The notes under the pieces are model-generated. The model ran no database searches, was not told the origin of the DNA, and saw nothing but the letters and a program-made list of their open reading frames with translations. Of a stretch of DNA of 64,000 nt, positions 12,134-53,953 are shown in pieces. Every line of letters begins with the position of its first letter. Positions within the stretch are counted from its first letter, which is position 1. This DNA comes from Armatimonadota bacterium. Lineage in GTDB: Bacteria > Sysuimicrobiota > Sysuimicrobiia > Sysuimicrobiales > Kaftiobacteriaceae. The position numbers and the translations under genes were made by a program. The stretch lies in assembly GCA_031081675.1 (NCBI GenBank), contig JAVHLZ010000001.1:36395-100394 (forward strand), in the 5' to 3' direction.

Positions 12134-13492
12134 TCAGGGCTGGATCGCCGCCAGCTCCCGCAACGCCGCCTCCACCTGCTGGCGGGGGTAGGCGTAGTCC
12201 TCCAGGCGCCCGGCCAGGAAGTCCTCATAGGCCTTGAGGTCGAAGTGCCCGTGGCCGCTGAGGTTGAACAGGATGACCCGCGCCCGCCCGTCCCGCCTGG
12301 CCTCCAGGGCCTCGTCGATGGCCTTGCGCACCGCGTGGGCGGACTCGGGCGCCGGGATGATTCCCTCCGCCCGGGCGAACTGCACCGCGGCGTCGAACAC
12401 CGCCCGCTGGGGATAGGCGACGGCCTCGATGTAGCCGTGGTGGTACAGCAGGCAGACCAGGGGCGCGTCCCCGTGGTAGCGCAGCCCGCCGGCGTGGATG
12501 GCGGGCGGAACAAAGGAGTGGCCGAGGGTGTACATCTTCAGCAGCGGGGTGGTGGCGGCGGTGTCCCCGAAGTCGTACAGGTACCTGCCCCGGGTCAGGG
12601 ACGGGCACGCCTCCGGCTCCACGGCCACGACCCGGACGTCCTTTCCCTTGAACTTGTCGGCCAGGAACGGGAATGTCAGCCCCGCCATGTTGCTGCCGCC
12701 GCCGATGCACCCGATGACCACGTCCGGGTAGTCCCCGGCCATCTCCATCTGCCGCTTGGCCTCCAGGCCGATGACCGTCTGGTGCATGAGGACGTGGTTG
12801 AGCACGCTGCCCAGGGAGTACTTGGTGTCGTCGTGGGTGGCGGCATCCTCCACCGCCTCGCTGATGGCGATGCCCAGGCTGCCCGGCGAGTCGGGATCCC
12901 GCTCCAGAATCGCCCGGCCCGCCCGGGTGCGGGGGCTGGGGCTGGGGATGACCTCGGCGCCCCAGGTCTGCATCATCACCTTGCGGTAGGGCTTCTGCTC
13001 GTAGCTGACGCGCACCATGTACACGGTGCACTCCAGGCCGAACAGGCGGCAGGCCAGGGCCAGGGCGCTGCCCCACTGCCCGGCGCCGGTCTCGGTGGTG
13101 AGCCGGCGCACGCCGGCCTGCTTGTTGTAGAAGGCCTGGGCGACTGCGGTGTTGGGCTTGTGGCTGCCGGCAGGGCTGGTGCCCTCGTACTTGTAGTAGA
13201 TCCGCGCAGGCGTGTCCAGGGCCCGCTCCAGCCGCCGGGCCCGGTACAGCGGCGTGGGCCGCCACAGGCGGTACACGTCGCGCACGGGCTCGGGAATGGG
13301 AACCTCGCGTTCGGTGCTCACCTCCTGGGCGATCAGGTCCATGGGAAACAGCGGGGCCAGATCGTCGGGCCCGATGGGCTGCTTGGTCCCGGGGTGGATG
13401 ACGGGCGGCAGGGGCACCGGCAAGTCGGCCTGGATGTTGTACCAGGCCCGGGGAATCTGGGTTTCGTCCAGCAGGTACTTGACGCTGTCCAT
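12134..13492 (-). CDS. trpB2: tryptophan synthase beta chain, TrpB2 type
   Basis: 452 aa, about 50 residues longer than standard TrpB, as in the TrpB2 group. PLP lysine K112 in [21 protein letters not shown] and the phosphate loop IGGGSNMAG are present. Synthesises tryptophan from serine and indole. TrpB2 enzymes often work without tight TrpA binding, and no trpA or other trp gene is near, so indole salvage is possible. ATG at 13492 follows AGGAGG. Expression should be controlled by the T-box leader just upstream, whose specifier reads TGG (Trp). Confidence 0.93.
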
Positions 13493-13923: not shown

Positions 13924-15621
13924 TCACTTCACGCGCAGGGTGCGCAGGCGGTTCAGGGCGGCGGCCAGCTCGTGGCGGCGGGGCAGAGCCAGATCGCCGG
14001 CGGGGCCGTCGGGAACCAGCACCTCCAGCCCGGCGCGGGCGATCTCCATCTCGATCAGCCCCAGGATCTCGCGGATGGTGCGGGCGCCGTCGGCCAGGCC
14101 CCGGTCGGCGGCAAAGACCAGCGCGGCCGCAATGGCCCGCGCCTGGGCAGGATCCACCAGCTGCTCGACGGCCGAGAGGTCCACGGTGTGGGGACCGAGG
14201 GGGATCGCCCGCCGGGGCAGCCGCGGGCCGTCGGCGGACTCGACGCGCGGACGGCGCCCGCGCAGAGGGGCCAGGCTGTCCGGGAGCGGGATCCGGTGGT
14301 GAACGCCTCCGAAGCGGGCGCGGGGGGGCCGGGCGGCCGGGGCGGCCTGCTTTGCCTGCGCCGTCACCACCCGGGGACGGAATTCGTCCAGGGCGATGAC
14401 CGTATCCGCCACCGGCACGTACTCGGCGCCGCGGGTGGTCACGACGATGGAAGACACCCCATGCTCCTCGTACAGGGGGCGGAGCACCTCGGCCAGGGAC
14501 ACCACGGGACGCGCAGCCTCGGGGGCGATCTCCGCCCACAGGGCATCCCGGCCCATCAGGGCGGCCGCCGCCGTGTCCTCGTCCACCAGCAGCAGCGAGC
14601 AGCCCGCCTCCAGAGCCTCCATCACCGAGGCGGCCATCGCCAGCGCGTCAGAGGCCGATTCGGTCCGCAGCCGGCGCGGGTCCTGGCCGCCGGGGAGCCG
14701 CTCGACGAAGGCGGAGACGTCCACCCCCTCCACCCGCCGGCCGGGATCGGCCCGCACCAGGACGGCGTCGGGCACGGTCACGCAGTACTCGCGCCCGTCC
14801 CCTGGCAGGTGAGGGTACACCGCCGCCGCCACCGCCCGCAGAAAGGTGGAGCGCCCGGATAGCGGGTGGCCCAGGACCACGGTGACGCCCCGCGGAATGC
14901 CCAGCCCCGTGACGGGCCCCCGGTGGGGCGGGGTGAGGGTCACCCGGAGCTCGCGGGGGGCCTCCAGGGGGACCAGCCGGGACAGCAGGGGCCTGTCGGT
15001 GGCGGGATCCCGGGGCAGGACCGCGCCGTCGGCCAGGAAGGCCACGAGGTTGTGCACGGACAGTTCCGTGCGCATGGCCTCGTAATCCTCGACGGCCTCA
15101 CAGTGTCGCTGGACCGCCGACGGGTTGAGGTTGGGGTACAGGAGCGAGCCCTCGACCACCTGGGGCAGGTCGTCGACGAACAGCGCCTGCAGGGCCTTGC
15201 TGGCGAGCCGCCGGCCCTCGGTGGGAAGAACCACCGTGCCCCGCACCTCGACATAGTCCTCGGCCAGGCGGCAGGCCGTCCGTTCCAGGATTTCCTGCTC
15301 GCCCACGCTGATGGCGAACGCCGGCCGGACCCCTCGGGCGCGGGCCACGCGGCGAGCGGCGTCCAGCCAGCGGCGCGCCAGGAAGTCCTCCAGGGCGATC
15401 CTGCCGGGTCGGGTGGACCACAGGCCCGGGGGGAATCGCGCCTCGGCCATATCCACGCGCACCCGCATCGCCGACGGCGCGCCGGGGGGCTCGGCCGTCA
15501 CCCGGTCCAGGGCGAGGACGAACCGTTCGAACCGGTACTCGCCCTCCAGGGCCCGGGCGGCCTGAAGGGGCTTGCCCTCCAGGGTGAGGATCTTGTCGCG
15601 CAGGCGTTCCCAGGGCAACAC
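13924..15621 (-). CDS. predicted ABC-class ATPase (COG3044 family) with degenerate motifs
   Basis: About 565 aa. Overall layout follows the family named 'predicted ATPase of the ABC class': EGEYRFERFVLALDRV near the N-terminus, VRVRVDMAEARFP, RELRVTLTP, the P-loop region at about 251-259 and LLLVDEDTAA around D347. Two core motifs are altered. The P-loop reads GHPLSGRST, with Arg in place of the invariant Lys, and the usual ASGSTSQAA segment reads ASDALAMAA. ATP hydrolysis is therefore doubtful. The cellular role of the family is unknown. Start set at GTG 15621, which keeps the short N-terminus usual in the family; GTG 15669 would overlap the upstream gene by 28 bases. Confidence 0.65.
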   Translation of the reverse strand: MLPWERLRDKILTLEGKPLQAARALEGEYRFERFVLALDRVTAEPPGAPSAMRVRVDMAEARFPPGLWSTRPGRIALEDFLARRWLDAARRVARARGVRPAFAISVGEQEILERTACRLAEDYVEVRGTVVLPTEGRRLASKALQALFVDDLPQVVEGSLLYPNLNPSAVQRHCEAVEDYEAMRTELSVHNLVAFLADGAVLPRDPATDRPLLSRLVPLEAPRELRVTLTPPHRGPVTGLGIPRGVTVVLGHPLSGRSTFLRAVAAAVYPHLPGDGREYCVTVPDAVLVRADPGRRVEGVDVSAFVERLPGGQDPRRLRTESASDALAMAASVMEALEAGCSLLLVDEDTAAAALMGRDALWAEIAPEAARPVVSLAEVLRPLYEEHGVSSIVVTTRGAEYVPVADTVIALDEFRPRVVTAQAKQAAPAARPPRARFGGVHHRIPLPDSLAPLRGRRPRVESADGPRLPRRAIPLGPHTVDLSAVEQLVDPAQARAIAAALVFAADRGLADGARTIREILGLIEMEIARAGLEVLVPDGPAGDLALPRRHELAAALNRLRTLRVK

Positions 15622-15641: not shown

Positions 15642-16658
15642 TCAGGCATCCGAGAGGTGAGATGCGGACCGCTCCGGTTCCTGCAGCGCAGCCTCCAGCA
15701 GGCGCACGGCGTCGTCGGCGTCGCGGTAGCGGATCAGGCGCACCCAGTCGTTGCCGGCCACCATGGCCGACAGGGCGACGTCCTGCTGGCACAGGCAGAC
15801 CACGGGCTTGCCCAGGTGCTGGGCCGTGGCGATCTCCACCCCTACCCCCAGCGACGGCACCGAGACCTCGGCCACCACCAGGTCGCACGCGGCCAGCCAC
15901 TCCCTGTCCCGCCGGTAGATGTCGCGGGGACTGGCCCCGGCGGCCTGCTCCTGCTCCAGGACGTCCGGGGCCGCCACGTGGGCGGTGAGCACCCGGTAGC
16001 CGGCCCGCTCCAGGAACGCCACCAGGGCGGCGTAGGTGGGCTGGAGGGCGCGCCCGCCCCGGATCGACCCCGAAAAGTACACCGCCCGGCCCGATCCGCC
16101 GGCCACCTGCGCGGCCAGGGGGTGCGGGCGGAGGCTGGCCGGCGCCACGCCCAGCGCCTCCAGCCTGCGGCGGAGGGCGGCGGCCGCCGCCTGGGGATCC
16201 GCTCCGGCCGCCTCCACCTCACCCATCCACCCCACGCCGTCCACGTGCTCCACGGCCACGCCCCCCAGCCCGGGCAGCTCGTACAGCGTCCCGGCGGTCT
16301 TGCGCACCACAACCCACGGCACGCCGCCCAGGGCTGCGGCCACGGCGTGGCAGGCGGCCGGATCGGCCCGGTGCAGGCAGAGCTTGCCCTCCGGAAAGCG
16401 CGAGCGCTTGAACGTCAGCTCCCCGCTGGCCTGCAGGTCCACCCACGACAGCAACAGCTCCGCCGGCTGCGGGGGCGCGTGGTGCTCGCGCACCCGCAGC
16501 GACCGGGCGGCGGGGTCCGATGCTCCCGGCAGCCGGTAGTAGTGGTCGGTGAAGGCGTACTCCCCGACCGCCCGCCCCCCCAGGGACGCCACCCGGCGGC
16601 GGAAGGCGGCGAGGTCGCCGATGGGAAAGCGCACCTCGCACTCGAACGGCGCGGTCAT
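15642..16658 (-). CDS. fusion of a CYTH phosphatase domain and a DNPH1-like nucleotide N-hydrolase
   Basis: 338 aa with two unrelated domains. Residues 1-180: CYTH domain (class IV adenylate cyclase / thiamine triphosphatase / triphosphate tunnel fold), opening with E6-C-E8-V-R10, an ExExK motif with Arg for Lys; later basic strands LTFKRSRF and WVVVRKTAG. Residues 190-338: nucleoside 2-deoxyribosyltransferase-like domain closest to DNPH1/Rcl, with YFSGSIRGG (194-202), RRDREWL (D251) and VVAEVSVPSLGVG (E264), the residues that hydrolyse deoxynucleoside 5'-monophosphates. Such a protein could clean up tri- and mono-phosphorylated nucleotides. ATG overlaps the acyl-CoA dehydrogenase stop (ATGA). 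I know of no standard family with this fusion. Confidence 0.82.
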   Translation of the reverse strand: MTAPFECEVRFPIGDLAAFRRRVASLGGRAVGEYAFTDHYYRLPGASDPAARSLRVREHHAPPQPAELLLSWVDLQASGELTFKRSRFPEGKLCLHRADPAACHAVAAALGGVPWVVVRKTAGTLYELPGLGGVAVEHVDGVGWMGEVEAAGADPQAAAAALRRRLEALGVAPASLRPHPLAAQVAGGSGRAVYFSGSIRGGRALQPTYAALVAFLERAGYRVLTAHVAAPDVLEQEQAAGASPRDIYRRDREWLAACDLVVAEVSVPSLGVGVEIATAQHLGKPVVCLCQQDVALSAMVAGNDWVRLIRYRDADDAVRLLEAALQEPERSASHLSDA

Positions 16659-17863
16659 CGGTCGGGAAACGGCCAGGGAGGCAGCGACACCCGCAGGGGG
16701 CGGTCCTCGCGGTAGCCCAGGGCGTAGTCGGCCTGCAGCAGGGTGTGGATCTCCCGGGTCCCCTCGTAGATGACCGCGCCCTTGGCGTTGCGGTAAAAAC
16801 GCTCCACCGGGTACTCGTCCGCGTAGCCGTAGGCCCCGTGGATCTCCACGGCGTCGCTGGCCGCCTGCTCGCTGGCCACCGTGGCGTACCACTTGGCCAG
16901 GGACGTCTCGCGGGTGTTGCGCAGGCCCTGGTTTTTCATCCACCCCGCCCGCAGGTACAGCAGGCGGCTGACCTCGTAGTCCCGGGCCATCCGCGCAATC
17001 ATCTCCTTGACCAGCTGGTGCTCCCCGATGGGCCGGCCGAAGGCCTGCCGCTGCCGGGCGTAGCGGACGCTGGCGTCCAGGCAGGCGCGGATCAGGCCCG
17101 TGGCCCCGGCGGCCACCGTGTACCGCCCCTGGTCCAGGGCGAACATGGCGATGCGGAACCCCTCCCCCTCCTCGCCGATCCGGTGGTCCTCGGGCACCCG
17201 CACCTCCTCCAGGACCAGGCTGCCGGTGTTGCCCGCGCGGATGCCCAGCTTGCCGTGGATGGTCGACGTGCTCACCCCGCGCATCTCCCGGGTCACCAGG
17301 AAGGCGGAGATGCCCGTGTGGTCCCGCTGGCGCTGCCTGGCCGGGTCCGTCCAGGCGAAGACCAGGAAGTGGTCGGCCACGTCGGCCAGGGACATCCACG
17401 TCTTCTCCCCGGTGAGCACGTAGTGGCGGCCGTCCCGCACCGCGGTGGCCTGGATCCCCACGGCGTCGCTGCCGGCGGCAGGCTCGGTGAGCCCGTAGGC
17501 GGCGATCTTCTCTCCCCGGGCCTGGGGCACCAGGAAGCGGCGCCGCTGCTCCTCGGTCCCCCAGGTGAGCAGGGTCAGGCTGTTGAGGGCCAGGTGCACC
17601 GAGAGGATGACCCGCAGGGAGGTGTCCACGTACTCCAGCTCCTCGCAGGCCAGCCCCAGGCTGATGTAGTCCATCCCGGCGCCGCCGTAGCGCTCGGGGA
17701 TACACAGGCCCAGGATGCCCAGCCGGGCCATGGCGTCCAGGACGGACCGGTCAAAGCGCTGGGCGCGGTCCAGGTCCCGGATGCGGGGCGCCACCTCCGT
17801 CTGGGCAAACTCCCGCACCAGGCGCTGGGCGGCCAGCTGGTGGTCGGCCAGGGTGAAGTCCAT
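16655..17863 (-). CDS. acyl-CoA dehydrogenase
   Basis: 402 aa, standard length. FAD motifs YGLTEPAAGSDA and WMSLADVADHFLVF; catalytic base E367 in IYEGTREIHTL, the position used by short-chain and glutaryl-CoA dehydrogenases. The RAGNTGSLVLEEVRVPEDH segment and C-terminal YEGTREIHTLLQADYALG are closest to glutaryl-CoA dehydrogenase-type enzymes, but I would not assign the substrate. Oxidises an acyl-CoA and passes electrons to ETF; the fixC-fixX pair at 26588-28223 could take those electrons to quinone. Lies 4 bases after the M20 peptidase gene, with which it is probably co-transcribed. Confidence 0.9.
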   Translation of the reverse strand: MDFTLADHQLAAQRLVREFAQTEVAPRIRDLDRAQRFDRSVLDAMARLGILGLCIPERYGGAGMDYISLGLACEELEYVDTSLRVILSVHLALNSLTLLTWGTEEQRRRFLVPQARGEKIAAYGLTEPAAGSDAVGIQATAVRDGRHYVLTGEKTWMSLADVADHFLVFAWTDPARQRQRDHTGISAFLVTREMRGVSTSTIHGKLGIRAGNTGSLVLEEVRVPEDHRIGEEGEGFRIAMFALDQGRYTVAAGATGLIRACLDASVRYARQRQAFGRPIGEHQLVKEMIARMARDYEVSRLLYLRAGWMKNQGLRNTRETSLAKWYATVASEQAASDAVEIHGAYGYADEYPVERFYRNAKGAVIYEGTREIHTLLQADYALGYREDRPLRVSLPPWPFPDR

Positions 17864-50750: not shown

Positions 50751-51863
50751 ATGCTGATCCGGGCAGAAGGCGATCGGATCGAGCTGGTCCTCAGCCGGAG
50801 GAGTTTGCTGCGGCTAGGCGCGGCCACGGTCGGCGCGGCGGTCCTCGGCCGACTCGCCGCGCTATCGGGCGGGAGCCCGGCCACGGCCGCCGCCCCGGTT
50901 TCGGACCTCAACCTGCTGTTCGCGGGGGGGACGTGGAAGGAGTACTTCGAGCGGATCTACGCCCGGCCCTTCGAGAAGGCGAAGGGGGTGCGGGTGGTCT
51001 TCAGCGTCGGCGACTCGGCCCAGCAGATCTCCCGGGTCATCGCCGAACGCGACAACCCGCGGTTCGACATGATCCACATGCACCAGTATGCTGCAGCCCA
51101 GCTGAATGAATTGGGGCTGCTCGTGCCGCCTGATCCGCGGATCGTTACGAACCTCAAGGACGTGGATGAGGCGTTTCGCTTCCCGTACTTTGTCGGCAAG
51201 GTGCTGGCGCCCTTCGGCCTAGCCGTGAATACCCGTCGGGCACCGAAGAAGGTGACGTCCTGGAAGGACCTCTGGGATCCCGTCTTCGCGGGCCGGGTGG
51301 CCATCCCGAAGTGGGAGTGGGTGGGCAATACCTGGTTCTACGCCGTCAACCGGGTCTGGGGCGGCACCGAGACGAACATCGATCCCGGCATCGCCAAGTG
51401 CCGCGAGCTGGTGCGCGCCAACCGCGCCGTGATCATGAACAACGTCGAACACGGCATCGCCCTGCTGACGAGCGAAGAGACCTGGATTCAGCCCTTCTAC
51501 ACCGCCCGCACCGAGCAGGCCCGCGACGCCGGGGCGCCGGTGGAGTTCGTTTTCCCCTCCGAGGGAGCTCTGAACTGGACTTTCAACCTGGGGATCATCC
51601 GGGGACGCGGCGCCGCCAGTACCGCGCTGGCCCAGGAGTTCCTCAACTTCACGTTGGACCCGGTGCAGCAAGCGCAGTTCGGCATCCTCACCGGCTATCC
51701 GCCGACGAACCGGCGAGCCCAGGCCCTGCTCCCGAGCAACTCCAACGTCCTGCTCACCCCGGAGCAGATGGCGAACCTGGGCCGGATGCGCTTCGACATC
51801 AAGGCCATGCTGGCCAATCGGGACCGGCACGCGGAGCGCTGGAACAAGGAGGTCCTCGGCTAA
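50751..51863 (+). CDS. periplasmic-type substrate-binding protein, PotD family, Tat-exported
   Basis: 370 aa. Twin-arginine signal LSRRSLLRLGAATVGAAV (14-31), a hydrophobic stretch and an Ala-rich cleavage region near 45-49. The mature part resembles PotD/iron(III)-type binding proteins (TWKEYFERIYARPFEKAKGVRV, DMIHMHQYAAAQLNELGLL, TSWKDLWDPVFAGRVAIP). No lipobox cysteine. Captures the substrate for the two upstream permeases; ligand unknown, perhaps a polyamine-like amide given the downstream enzymes. Strong ribosome-binding site GAGGAGGTGGGAGG. Confidence 0.87.
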   Translation: MLIRAEGDRIELVLSRRSLLRLGAATVGAAVLGRLAALSGGSPATAAAPVSDLNLLFAGGTWKEYFERIYARPFEKAKGVRVVFSVGDSAQQISRVIAERDNPRFDMIHMHQYAAAQLNELGLLVPPDPRIVTNLKDVDEAFRFPYFVGKVLAPFGLAVNTRRAPKKVTSWKDLWDPVFAGRVAIPKWEWVGNTWFYAVNRVWGGTETNIDPGIAKCRELVRANRAVIMNNVEHGIALLTSEETWIQPFYTARTEQARDAGAPVEFVFPSEGALNWTFNLGIIRGRGAASTALAQEFLNFTLDPVQQAQFGILTGYPPTNRRAQALLPSNSNVLLTPEQMANLGRMRFDIKAMLANRDRHAERWNKEVLG

Positions 51864-51870
51864 CACGGTC

Positions 51871-52983
51871 ATGGCCGTTCCCCTGGCGCTGGTGGGGGTC
51901 GTGAAGTACTACGGACACGTGCTGGGGGTGGGACCGGTCAGCCTCGAGGTGGCCCCTGGGGAATTCGTCTCCCTCCTCGGCCCCTCCGGGTGCGGCAAGA
52001 CGACGACACTGCGCCTTATCGCCGGGCTGGAGCGGCCCACGGCCGGGGCGATCCGCATCGGTGAGGAGGACGTCACCGGCGTGCCCAGCTATCGCCGCAA
52101 CATCGGGTTGGTATTCCAGAACTACGCGCTCTTCCCCCATCTCTCCGTGTTCGACAACGTCGCCTTCGGGCTCCGCTACCGCGGGGTGACCGGCGCGGAG
52201 GCCCGGCGGCGCGTGGCCGAGGCGCTGGAGCTGGTGGGGCTGGTGGGCTACGAACAGCGGCTGCCGCGGCAGCTCTCTGGCGGCCAGCAGCAACGGGTGG
52301 CCCTGGCCCGTGCCGTTGTGATCAACCCGCGCATCCTGTTGCTGGACGAGCCGCTGAGCAACCTCGACCTGGCCCTGCGTCAGCGGATGCAGGCCGAGAT
52401 CAAGCGCATTCAACGCGAGTTGGGCATCACCACCGTCTACGTGACCCACGATCAGACCGAAGCCTTCGGACTCTCGGACCGGATCGCCGTGCTCTTCCAC
52501 GGCCGTGTCCACCAGTACGCACGGCCGGACGAGCTGTACGAGCGCCCGGCAACGCCCGAGGTCGCGGATTTCATCGGCGAAACGAATACCCTAAACGGCC
52601 GGCTGCGCCGCGACCATGGCCGGGTCGTCTTCACCACGAGCCGGGGCACGGAGCTCGTGGTCTCCCCCGAGCACGTACCCGCTGGTGAGGAAAGCGTGCG
52701 CCTGTTCATCCGACCGCATCGCGTTCGCTTCTTTCCGCCGGGGGCCGATGTGGAGGGCCCCAACCTCTTCGAAGCAACCGTGGAGCGCCTGATCTTCGGC
52801 GGCGACGTGCTGCGGGCCACCGTGCGCCTCCGGCAGGGGGATGTCGTCCAGATCAGTGCCCACAACCGCCAGGAGACCCGCACCGCCCTGCAACAGGGCT
52901 CGCTGCGAATCCAGCTGTTGCCCGAAGACCTGCAGGTGTTTCCCTCCAAAGGGAAGGAGGCCGATCGTGTTTCAGTTCGGTGA
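51871..52983 (+). CDS. ABC transporter ATPase, PotA type
   Basis: 370 aa. Walker [11 protein letters not shown]-loop [10 protein letters not shown], signature [14 protein letters not shown], Walker [14 protein letters not shown]-loop [10 protein letters not shown], then a C-terminal TOBE-type regulatory domain (from about 240). Energises the importer formed by the preceding genes. Starts 7 bases after the binding-protein gene and overlaps the next gene by 17 bases. Confidence 0.93.
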
Positions 52984-53953
52984 GACGACGGTGGCCCCCG
53001 GACAGGTGGCACGAACGAGCTTCCGGCTATTGACCTGCCCGGACGGCGACACCGTCGATGCGCCCGTCGTCATCATGTGCGGGGCGCGTCCGGGGCCGGT
53101 ACTGTGGATCCAGGCCTGCATCCACGGCAACGAGGTGGGAGGAACGCTGGCCCTCCACCGGCTGCTGGCCTCGCTATCGCCGTCCCGCCTCCGGGGAACC
53201 ATTGTTGCCGTCCCCATCCTCAACGTACCGGCCTTTCGCGCCCGCAGCCGCGAGAGCCCCGTAGACCACGCCAACCTCAACCGGGTATTCCCCGGCAACG
53301 CCGCGGGCCGCTTCAGCGACCAGATGGCCGACCGGATCTGGGGGCTCGTGCGCGCCACGGCGACCGCGGCACTCGACCTCCACAGCGGCGGCGACCTAGG
53401 CCGGGTGCCGTTCTACGCCATCTACCACGCGGACGGCTCGGAAGCCAGCCGCACCGCCCGCCGGATGGCGGAGGCGGCAGGCACGCCGTATCTGTGGGCC
53501 TCGCGGGCGGACTGGCTCGCCGGGGCAATGTTCACCCGCCTCACCCAGGAAGGGATTCCGGCGGTGATCGTAGAGGTGGGCGGCGGCGACGTCACCGACG
53601 ATGACCTCCGTCACTTCGAGCAGGCCCTCCATGGGGTGCTGGCGGCGCTGGAAATGGTGGAGAAACCGGTGGTTCGCCAGCCCCGCTACACGATCCTGGG
53701 GGCATCCCAGATGATGCAGGTGCGGCGGGGCGGGATCCTCCTCCCAAAGGCCCGACCCGGGGAGATCGTACCCCGGGAGGCGGTGGTCGCCGAACTCGTC
53801 GACGCCTACGGCGACGTCGTGGAAACGGTACGTGCCCCCTTCGAGCGGAGTTTCGTGGCCTCGATGCGGCGCCGGGGCCTCGCCGTCCATCCGGGCGAGC
53901 GGGTCAGCATCATACTGGAGGTCGCAGGCGAGGAGACCGGCGGTGGGCCCTGA
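52967..53953 (+). CDS. succinylglutamate desuccinylase / aspartoacylase-like (M14) deacylase
   Basis: 328 aa. Zinc ligands of the AstE/AspA branch: H53xxE56 in IHGNEVGGT and H139 in ALDLHSGGD; NRVFPG (105-110) gives the substrate-binding Arg, and the late VIVEVGGG supplies the catalytic Glu. Family members hydrolyse N-acyl amino acids or related amides. GTG 52967 is chosen for AAGGAGG six bases upstream, which lies within the end of the transporter gene. Together with the importer, creatininase remnant and amidohydrolase it suggests breakdown of an imported amide; the compound is unknown. Confidence 0.85.
   Translation: MFQFGETTVAPGQVARTSFRLLTCPDGDTVDAPVVIMCGARPGPVLWIQACIHGNEVGGTLALHRLLASLSPSRLRGTIVAVPILNVPAFRARSRESPVDHANLNRVFPGNAAGRFSDQMADRIWGLVRATATAALDLHSGGDLGRVPFYAIYHADGSEASRTARRMAEAAGTPYLWASRADWLAGAMFTRLTQEGIPAVIVEVGGGDVTDDDLRHFEQALHGVLAALEMVEKPVVRQPRYTILGASQMMQVRRGGILLPKARPGEIVPREAVVAELVDAYGDVVETVRAPFERSFVASMRRRGLAVHPGERVSIILEVAGEETGGGP

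Follow-up and report, generated by a model that had tools for sequence, protein, structure and literature searches.

Fusions that involve a DNPH1-like or a CYTH domain have been described before. In Arthrobacter phage Wayne, the DNPH1-like dAMP hydrolase/transferase DmtZ is fused to DutZ, a dUTPase-like dATP pyrophosphohydrolase, and since the product of DutZ is a monophosphate this is a true two-step fusion (PMC12884076). YgiF has an N-terminal CYTH domain joined to CHAD, and plant TTM1/2 join CYTH to a phosphoribulokinase-type domain (PMC8233210). CHAD and phosphoribulokinase are the partners named in that CYTH network paper, whose list of multidomain clusters has no entry for DNPH1/NDT. Hydrolytic tunnel triphosphatases take the gamma phosphate off, converting NTP to NDP (PMC8233210); ATP is not used at all by E. 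coli YgiF (PMC3440374). DNPH1 is described as acting on monophosphates (PMC10483697). In the human enzyme, Y24, D80 and E104 are the catalytic residues, S98 and S128' bind the phosphate, and E55 is the general base of the second step, the E55Q change trapping the glycosyl-enzyme (PMC10603095).

The window, which is the whole 64,000 nucleotide stretch of DNA analysed, carries at 15642..16658 (-) a gene that joins a CYTH-like domain to a DNPH1-type domain, apparently a new and phylum-restricted combination of two known enzyme families. DmtZ-DutZ is alike in pairing a DNPH1-like domain with a triphosphate-acting nucleotide hydrolase, the counterpart of which is predicted here, and in having split forms among its relatives. 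It differs in that its partner has the dUTPase fold, the DNPH1-like domain comes first, the system is that of phage 2-aminoadenine-DNA, and an Asn is found where the catalytic Asp stands in the fusion protein. YgiF and plant TTM1/2 share the union of CYTH with a second domain, but in neither case is that domain related to DNPH1. The sequence-only reading had called the domain pair unfamiliar, and no description of it was found in the open PMC literature. CYTH and 'deoxyribosyltransferase' have no joint occurrence in open-access PMC papers (subscription papers and InterPro architectures being outside this scope), and the two papers there that contain both DNPH1 and CYTH are unrelated ones mentioning the two strings. 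The gene brings a domain pair that seems undescribed to two families with debated cellular roles, the CYTH-fold inorganic triphosphatases and bacterial DNPH1.

The fused gene and its distribution

ORF analysis gives an uninterrupted single frame of 338 residues (ATG start, TGA stop), and the gene occupies one frame in 8 genomes. Profile, fold and motifs place the CYTH, or triphosphate-tunnel, domain at approximately residues 1–178 (16125..16658 (-)). The DNPH1-type nucleotide N-hydrolase domain covers approximately residues 191–325 (15684..16088 (-)), based on Pfam, PDB sequence matches and fold. Between them is a flexible linker of residues 179–190 (16089..16124 (-)), recognised from AlphaFold2 pLDDT and alignment. 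The AlphaFold2 model of the monomer has a mean pLDDT of 76, falling below 50 at residues 177–190, and the linker aligned from P180 to Y194 ranges from 13 to 28 aa among relatives. There is no conserved start codon or Shine-Dalgarno sequence at the junction in the 8 genomes, and separate translation of the DNPH1 half was rejected on this ground. With a single frame and no conserved internal start, there is no sign that the two domains are made as separate proteins, and the fusion proposed from the sequence is borne out by profile, fold and active-site evidence. Both halves of the fused copies are under purifying selection, with Nei-Gojobori dN/dS of about 0.11–0.41 for CYTH and 0.20–0.35 for DNPH1, and 0.44–0.48 for CYTH-only pairs, all with partly saturated synonymous sites.

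Relatives were sought in whole genomes, 43 of those in the collection belonging to Ca. Sysuimicrobiota. The fusion is present at one chromosomal site in 8–10 genomes of this phylum. An unbroken frame with both halves is found in the genome of the window, G001, G003, G004, G006, G009 (family f1), G012 (f4) and G031 (f3). The copy in G008 is fused and interrupted by a contig end, and that in G010 is probably fused, because its two parts are on contig ends sharing at least 40 bases. In G007 the cut falls within the CYTH part. An assembly chimera is ruled out, because independent MAGs of several families carry the fusion at the identical site.

The fusion was not found in other phyla by a fusion-profile search of about 340 sampled genomes, nor in 290 genomes around G119 that partly overlap with these. 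Standalone DNPH1 loci sampled from other phyla have no recognisable CYTH neighbour within ~1.5 kb. A contig pattern scan, using patterns that reach close relatives only, returned just three relatives, each of them a MAG labelled ANGP1 or Armatimonadetes; in NCBI taxonomy ANGP1 is Ca. Sysuimicrobiota, family Segetimicrobiaceae. A phage or plasmid origin was rejected: the fusion has no phage matches, plasmids match through standalone DNPH1 only and without the fusion, and no relatives are found on viral contigs.

A divergent CYTH half

As a single sequence, residues 1–188 match no Pfam or NCBIfam model. A profile built from 12 relatives of the N-terminal half does reach solved CYTH proteins (2een 3e-8, 3n0y 2e-6, 3tvl 1e-3, and SaTTM 7ns8 at 0.05), the matches by name being PH1819 (3e-8), Pfu-838710 (2e-6), the Yersinia class IV cyclase (2e-6) and human thiamine triphosphatase (1e-3). 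PF01928 is matched by 5 of the 12 family members (best 1e-6) and its cut-off is passed by the relatives in G024, G006 and G003. It has no match in the whole genome of the window, where the fused protein is below the curated cut-off, and in most genomes of Ca. Sysuimicrobiota the CYTH half is too divergent for it. The N-terminal half of the AlphaFold2 model has the eight-stranded tunnel fold, matching 2dc4 (E 5.8e-10, TMt 0.81), 1yem (TMt 0.83), 7nsa and 3tvl.

The motifs of the domain are ExExR at 6–10, DxY at 38–40, RxR at 55–57, K84, K92, K120, E137, ExE at 147–149 and a C-terminal helix. The metal-binding glutamates E6, E8, E147 and E149, the latter two forming the ExE of strand 8, are invariant in 8/8 fusions, as are R55 and R57 of RxR. 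Positions K84 and K92 are basic, K120 is basic except in G031, and D38xY40 is present except in the f3 lineage, including its fused copy in G031. The hallmark ExExK is not found. As the sequence-only reading had noted, it is altered to ExExR, residues 6–10 being ECEVR, and this conservative change is invariant in 12/12 relatives. Because the hallmark lysine has changed, the half is filed as a divergent CYTH-like subfamily (ExExR) and not as a canonical TTM. A subfamily mostly missed by Pfam is thereby named.

Archaeal-type CYTH/TTM proteins (PH1012 2dc4, Pfu-838710 1yem, SaTTM 7ns9) are alike in fold (TMt 0.70–0.83), ExEx(basic), RxR, ExE and DxY. They stand alone, however, whereas the domain here is fused to DNPH1, has arginine for the hallmark lysine and is usually below the Pfam cut-off. 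Profile alignment to the archaeal proteins also shows no counterpart of the strand-4 lysine, with V/T/I/A at residue 73, or of the arginine of KxR, with A122 giving KxA. The CYTH half may therefore have another substrate, or may merely bind one.

According to the motif key of PMC8233210, RxR and ExE without an HF motif mark the hydrolytic type. Class IV cyclases are marked by HFxxxxExExK, a small residue in place of the first Arg in RxR, and ExA, and thiamine triphosphatases by W/Y two positions ahead of the first R in RxR. By this key the motifs of the CYTH half are like those of a hydrolytic triphosphatase. A class IV adenylyl cyclase (CyaB) is ruled out by the lack of HF, the intact RxR and the presence of ExE rather than ExA, and a thiamine triphosphatase by residue 53, which is S/A/T/I with no aromatic W/Y before RxR. 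The N-terminal half would thus be a two-metal tunnel phosphohydrolase, in which E6/E8/E147/E149 would bind Mg/Mn and R55/R57, together with R10, K84, K92 and K120, would hold a triphosphate in the tunnel. The enzyme would take off the terminal phosphate, most likely that of inorganic triphosphate or a (deoxy)nucleoside triphosphate.

The same residues can be read otherwise. The CYTH half could regulate or bind a substrate without turning it over, as a sensor of (poly)phosphate or a nucleotide triphosphate that tunes the DNPH1 half. The divergence of the tunnel (ExExR, KxA for KxR, DxY lost in f3 with its fused member, and a sequence out of reach of PF01928 in most of the phylum) agrees with such a role, but a pure binder would need no metal-2 glutamate, and here all four metal glutamates and both arginines of RxR are invariant in the fused copies. 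Three lineages also keep CYTH without DNPH1, which a role as DNPH1 regulator leaves unexplained. This is considered unlikely, and a tunnel phosphohydrolase is the reading preferred for the N-terminal half.

The CYTH-only proteins of G022 and G028 (L076:7998-8699 and L077:8590-9264) have ExA for ExE, yet lack HF and keep RxR. This is probably decay or altered function.

The DNPH1-type half

Residues 191–325 match PF05014 at 5.7e-12 (46.3 bits against a cut-off of 28.8) and DNPH1/Rcl chains in the PDB at 1e-20 to 1e-23, the best at 3.8e-23. The C-terminal half of the AlphaFold2 model matches the DNPH1 structure 4kxm (E 1.1e-8, TMt 0.85), and identity to DNPH1/Rcl is about 38–40% over the aligned fold. 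In the alignment, Y194, H227, I247, D251, S269, E275 and S297 correspond to human Y24, H56, I76, D80, S98, E104 and S128, and all seven are invariant in 8/8 fusions. The catalytic Tyr/Asp/Glu (Y194, D251, E275) and the 5'-phosphate serines (S269, S297) are therefore retained, along with the equivalent of H56. Together with the metal glutamates and RxR of the CYTH half, this upholds the earlier statement that both domains keep most catalytic residues. A V-L-x-x-E segment distinguishes the domain from DNPH1/Rcl and is found likewise in other bacterial homologues.

The other differences from DNPH1/Rcl are the added N-terminal CYTH domain and the replacement of E55. The E55 position is A226 here; across the fusions it is A/S/K/T/P, and DNPH1-only relatives have A or R there. 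Several standalone DNPH1 homologues of other phyla retain the glutamate. As E55 is outside the family-defining triad, its replacement is noted as a caveat and the classification as DNPH1-type is kept. It would be a dimeric glycosidase in which Y194/D251/E275 cut the base from a 2'-deoxynucleoside 5'-monophosphate, the products being the free base and deoxyribose 5-phosphate. S269 and, from the partner subunit, S297 would hold the 5'-phosphate; the dimer is proposed because S128 of human DNPH1 comes from the partner subunit.

The replaced glutamate, which human DNPH1 needs for the hydrolytic second step, could instead indicate a deoxyribose-5-phosphate transferase that exchanges bases as DmtZ does, in a protein that makes or salvages a modified nucleotide. 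Its loss in every fusion and DNPH1-only relative when several standalone bacterial homologues keep it, and the existence of a natural transferase in the DNPH1 family (DmtZ, PMC12884076), agree with this. D251, however, is Asp as in the hydrolases, where DmtZ has Asn; E237 is invariant in the fusions and could take over from E55; and there are no modified-nucleotide genes among the immediate neighbours. A transferase is considered very unlikely, and the glycosidase described above is preferred for the C-terminal half.

Palindromic elements were observed in several of these genes. In the DNPH1-only gene of G014, a ~71-bp palindromic element with 19-bp inverted arms TGAACCCCCTGAAACATCC occurs twice, both times in frame, at L079:7248-7318 (= G014:C142:10247-10317) and G014:C142:10592-10662. 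The arm TGAACCCCCTGAAACATCC has 46 matches in the G014 genome and none for the reversed control. This element resembles intragenic palindromic repeats such as the Rickettsia palindromic elements. Another palindrome, with arms CCCCGTACC..., is in frame in the DNPH1 half after 'DVL' in G006 (L081), and a shorter remnant of it follows 'DVL' in the DNPH1 half in G008 (L087). Paired arms of the CCCCGTACC type, ~51 bp apart, recur elsewhere in G003 and G006. Two unrelated palindromic elements have entered one and the same DNPH1 loop.

Relation between the two halves

At the syntenic site the CYTH half is found alone in G016, G019, G022, G028 and G024, and the DNPH1 half alone in G011 and G014. No recognisable copy of the missing half is present elsewhere in these genomes, the absence of CYTH having been assessed also by profile. 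The history that parsimony infers on a proxy species tree, made from three neighbouring and therefore linked proteins, starts with a fused ancestor and includes five independent losses of one half. In it, DNPH1 was lost three times (G024; G016/G019; G022/G025/G028, with a fragment in G025) and CYTH twice (G011; G014). Since five lineages keep one half with no second copy of the other, the halves are not mutually dependent. A linker of variable length and low model confidence indicates no rigid channel. The halves are probably not an obligatory two-step pathway.

Two loosely coupled enzymes on one chain, serving nucleotide or polyphosphate housekeeping, are the reading preferred here and are given an even chance. 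The two sites on a flexible tether would provide co-expression, co-localisation or a shared pool, with no obligate relay; pool sanitation is a plausible role. Both activities are predicted from family membership, and the substrates and the reason for the joining are the weakest parts of the proposal. The syntenic site offers a natural series of loci (fused, CYTH-only and DNPH1-only) for testing the link, in which a comparison of full-length and single-domain forms would address the question of a nucleotide-pool role for a CYTH enzyme.

The sequence-only reading had taken the joining to mean successive steps on one nucleotide, in either pool sanitation or the turnover of a signal nucleotide. 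In such a relay the CYTH half would take a damaged or non-canonical dNTP towards the monophosphate and the DNPH1 half would remove the base, clearing the pool. DmtZ-DutZ is a precedent of similar logic (PMC12884076), and the fusion, itself ancestral, persists in at least three or four families. DutZ leaves a dNMP, but tunnel triphosphatases take off a single phosphate, so that a diphosphate remains; as DNPH1 needs a monophosphate, the chemistry is not directly chained. With this mismatch, the failure of E. coli YgiF to use ATP, the five half losses and the flexible linker of variable length, the earlier claim gains little from the analysis and a relay is distinctly unlikely. There is a slim chance that the ExExR tunnel and DNPH1 share one non-canonical deoxynucleotide as substrate, which would be cleared or have its base exchanged by way of CYTH chemistry not yet seen, for instance with a monophosphate as product.

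The neighbours speak against the preferred reading, in that no nucleotide theme is seen among the acyl-CoA dehydrogenase, M20/S41 peptidases, TrpB-like enzyme and ABC-class ATPase. The conserved gene order is SAM hydrolase, S41 peptidase, (CcdA-like protein, M20 deacylase), acyl-CoA dehydrogenase, fused gene, ABC-class ATPase and TrpB-like enzyme. In the window, the acyl-CoA dehydrogenase is directly upstream with a 4-base overlap (16655..17863 (-)) and the ABC-class ATPase (PF09818/PF20446/PF21117) directly downstream (13924..15621 (-)), both being conserved neighbours. The TrpB-like PLP enzyme (12134..13492 (-)) is the most constant downstream neighbour. The ABC-class ATPase, in which PF21117 is the MRB1590-like C-terminal domain, adjoins the gene in f1, f4 and f6 and is absent from that place in f3. 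Elsewhere in the window, 50751-53953 (+) contains three successive 370-aa ORFs (50751-51863, 51871-52983 and 52841-53953), the last two overlapping by ~140 bases, and this trio resembles the gene set of an ABC transporter.
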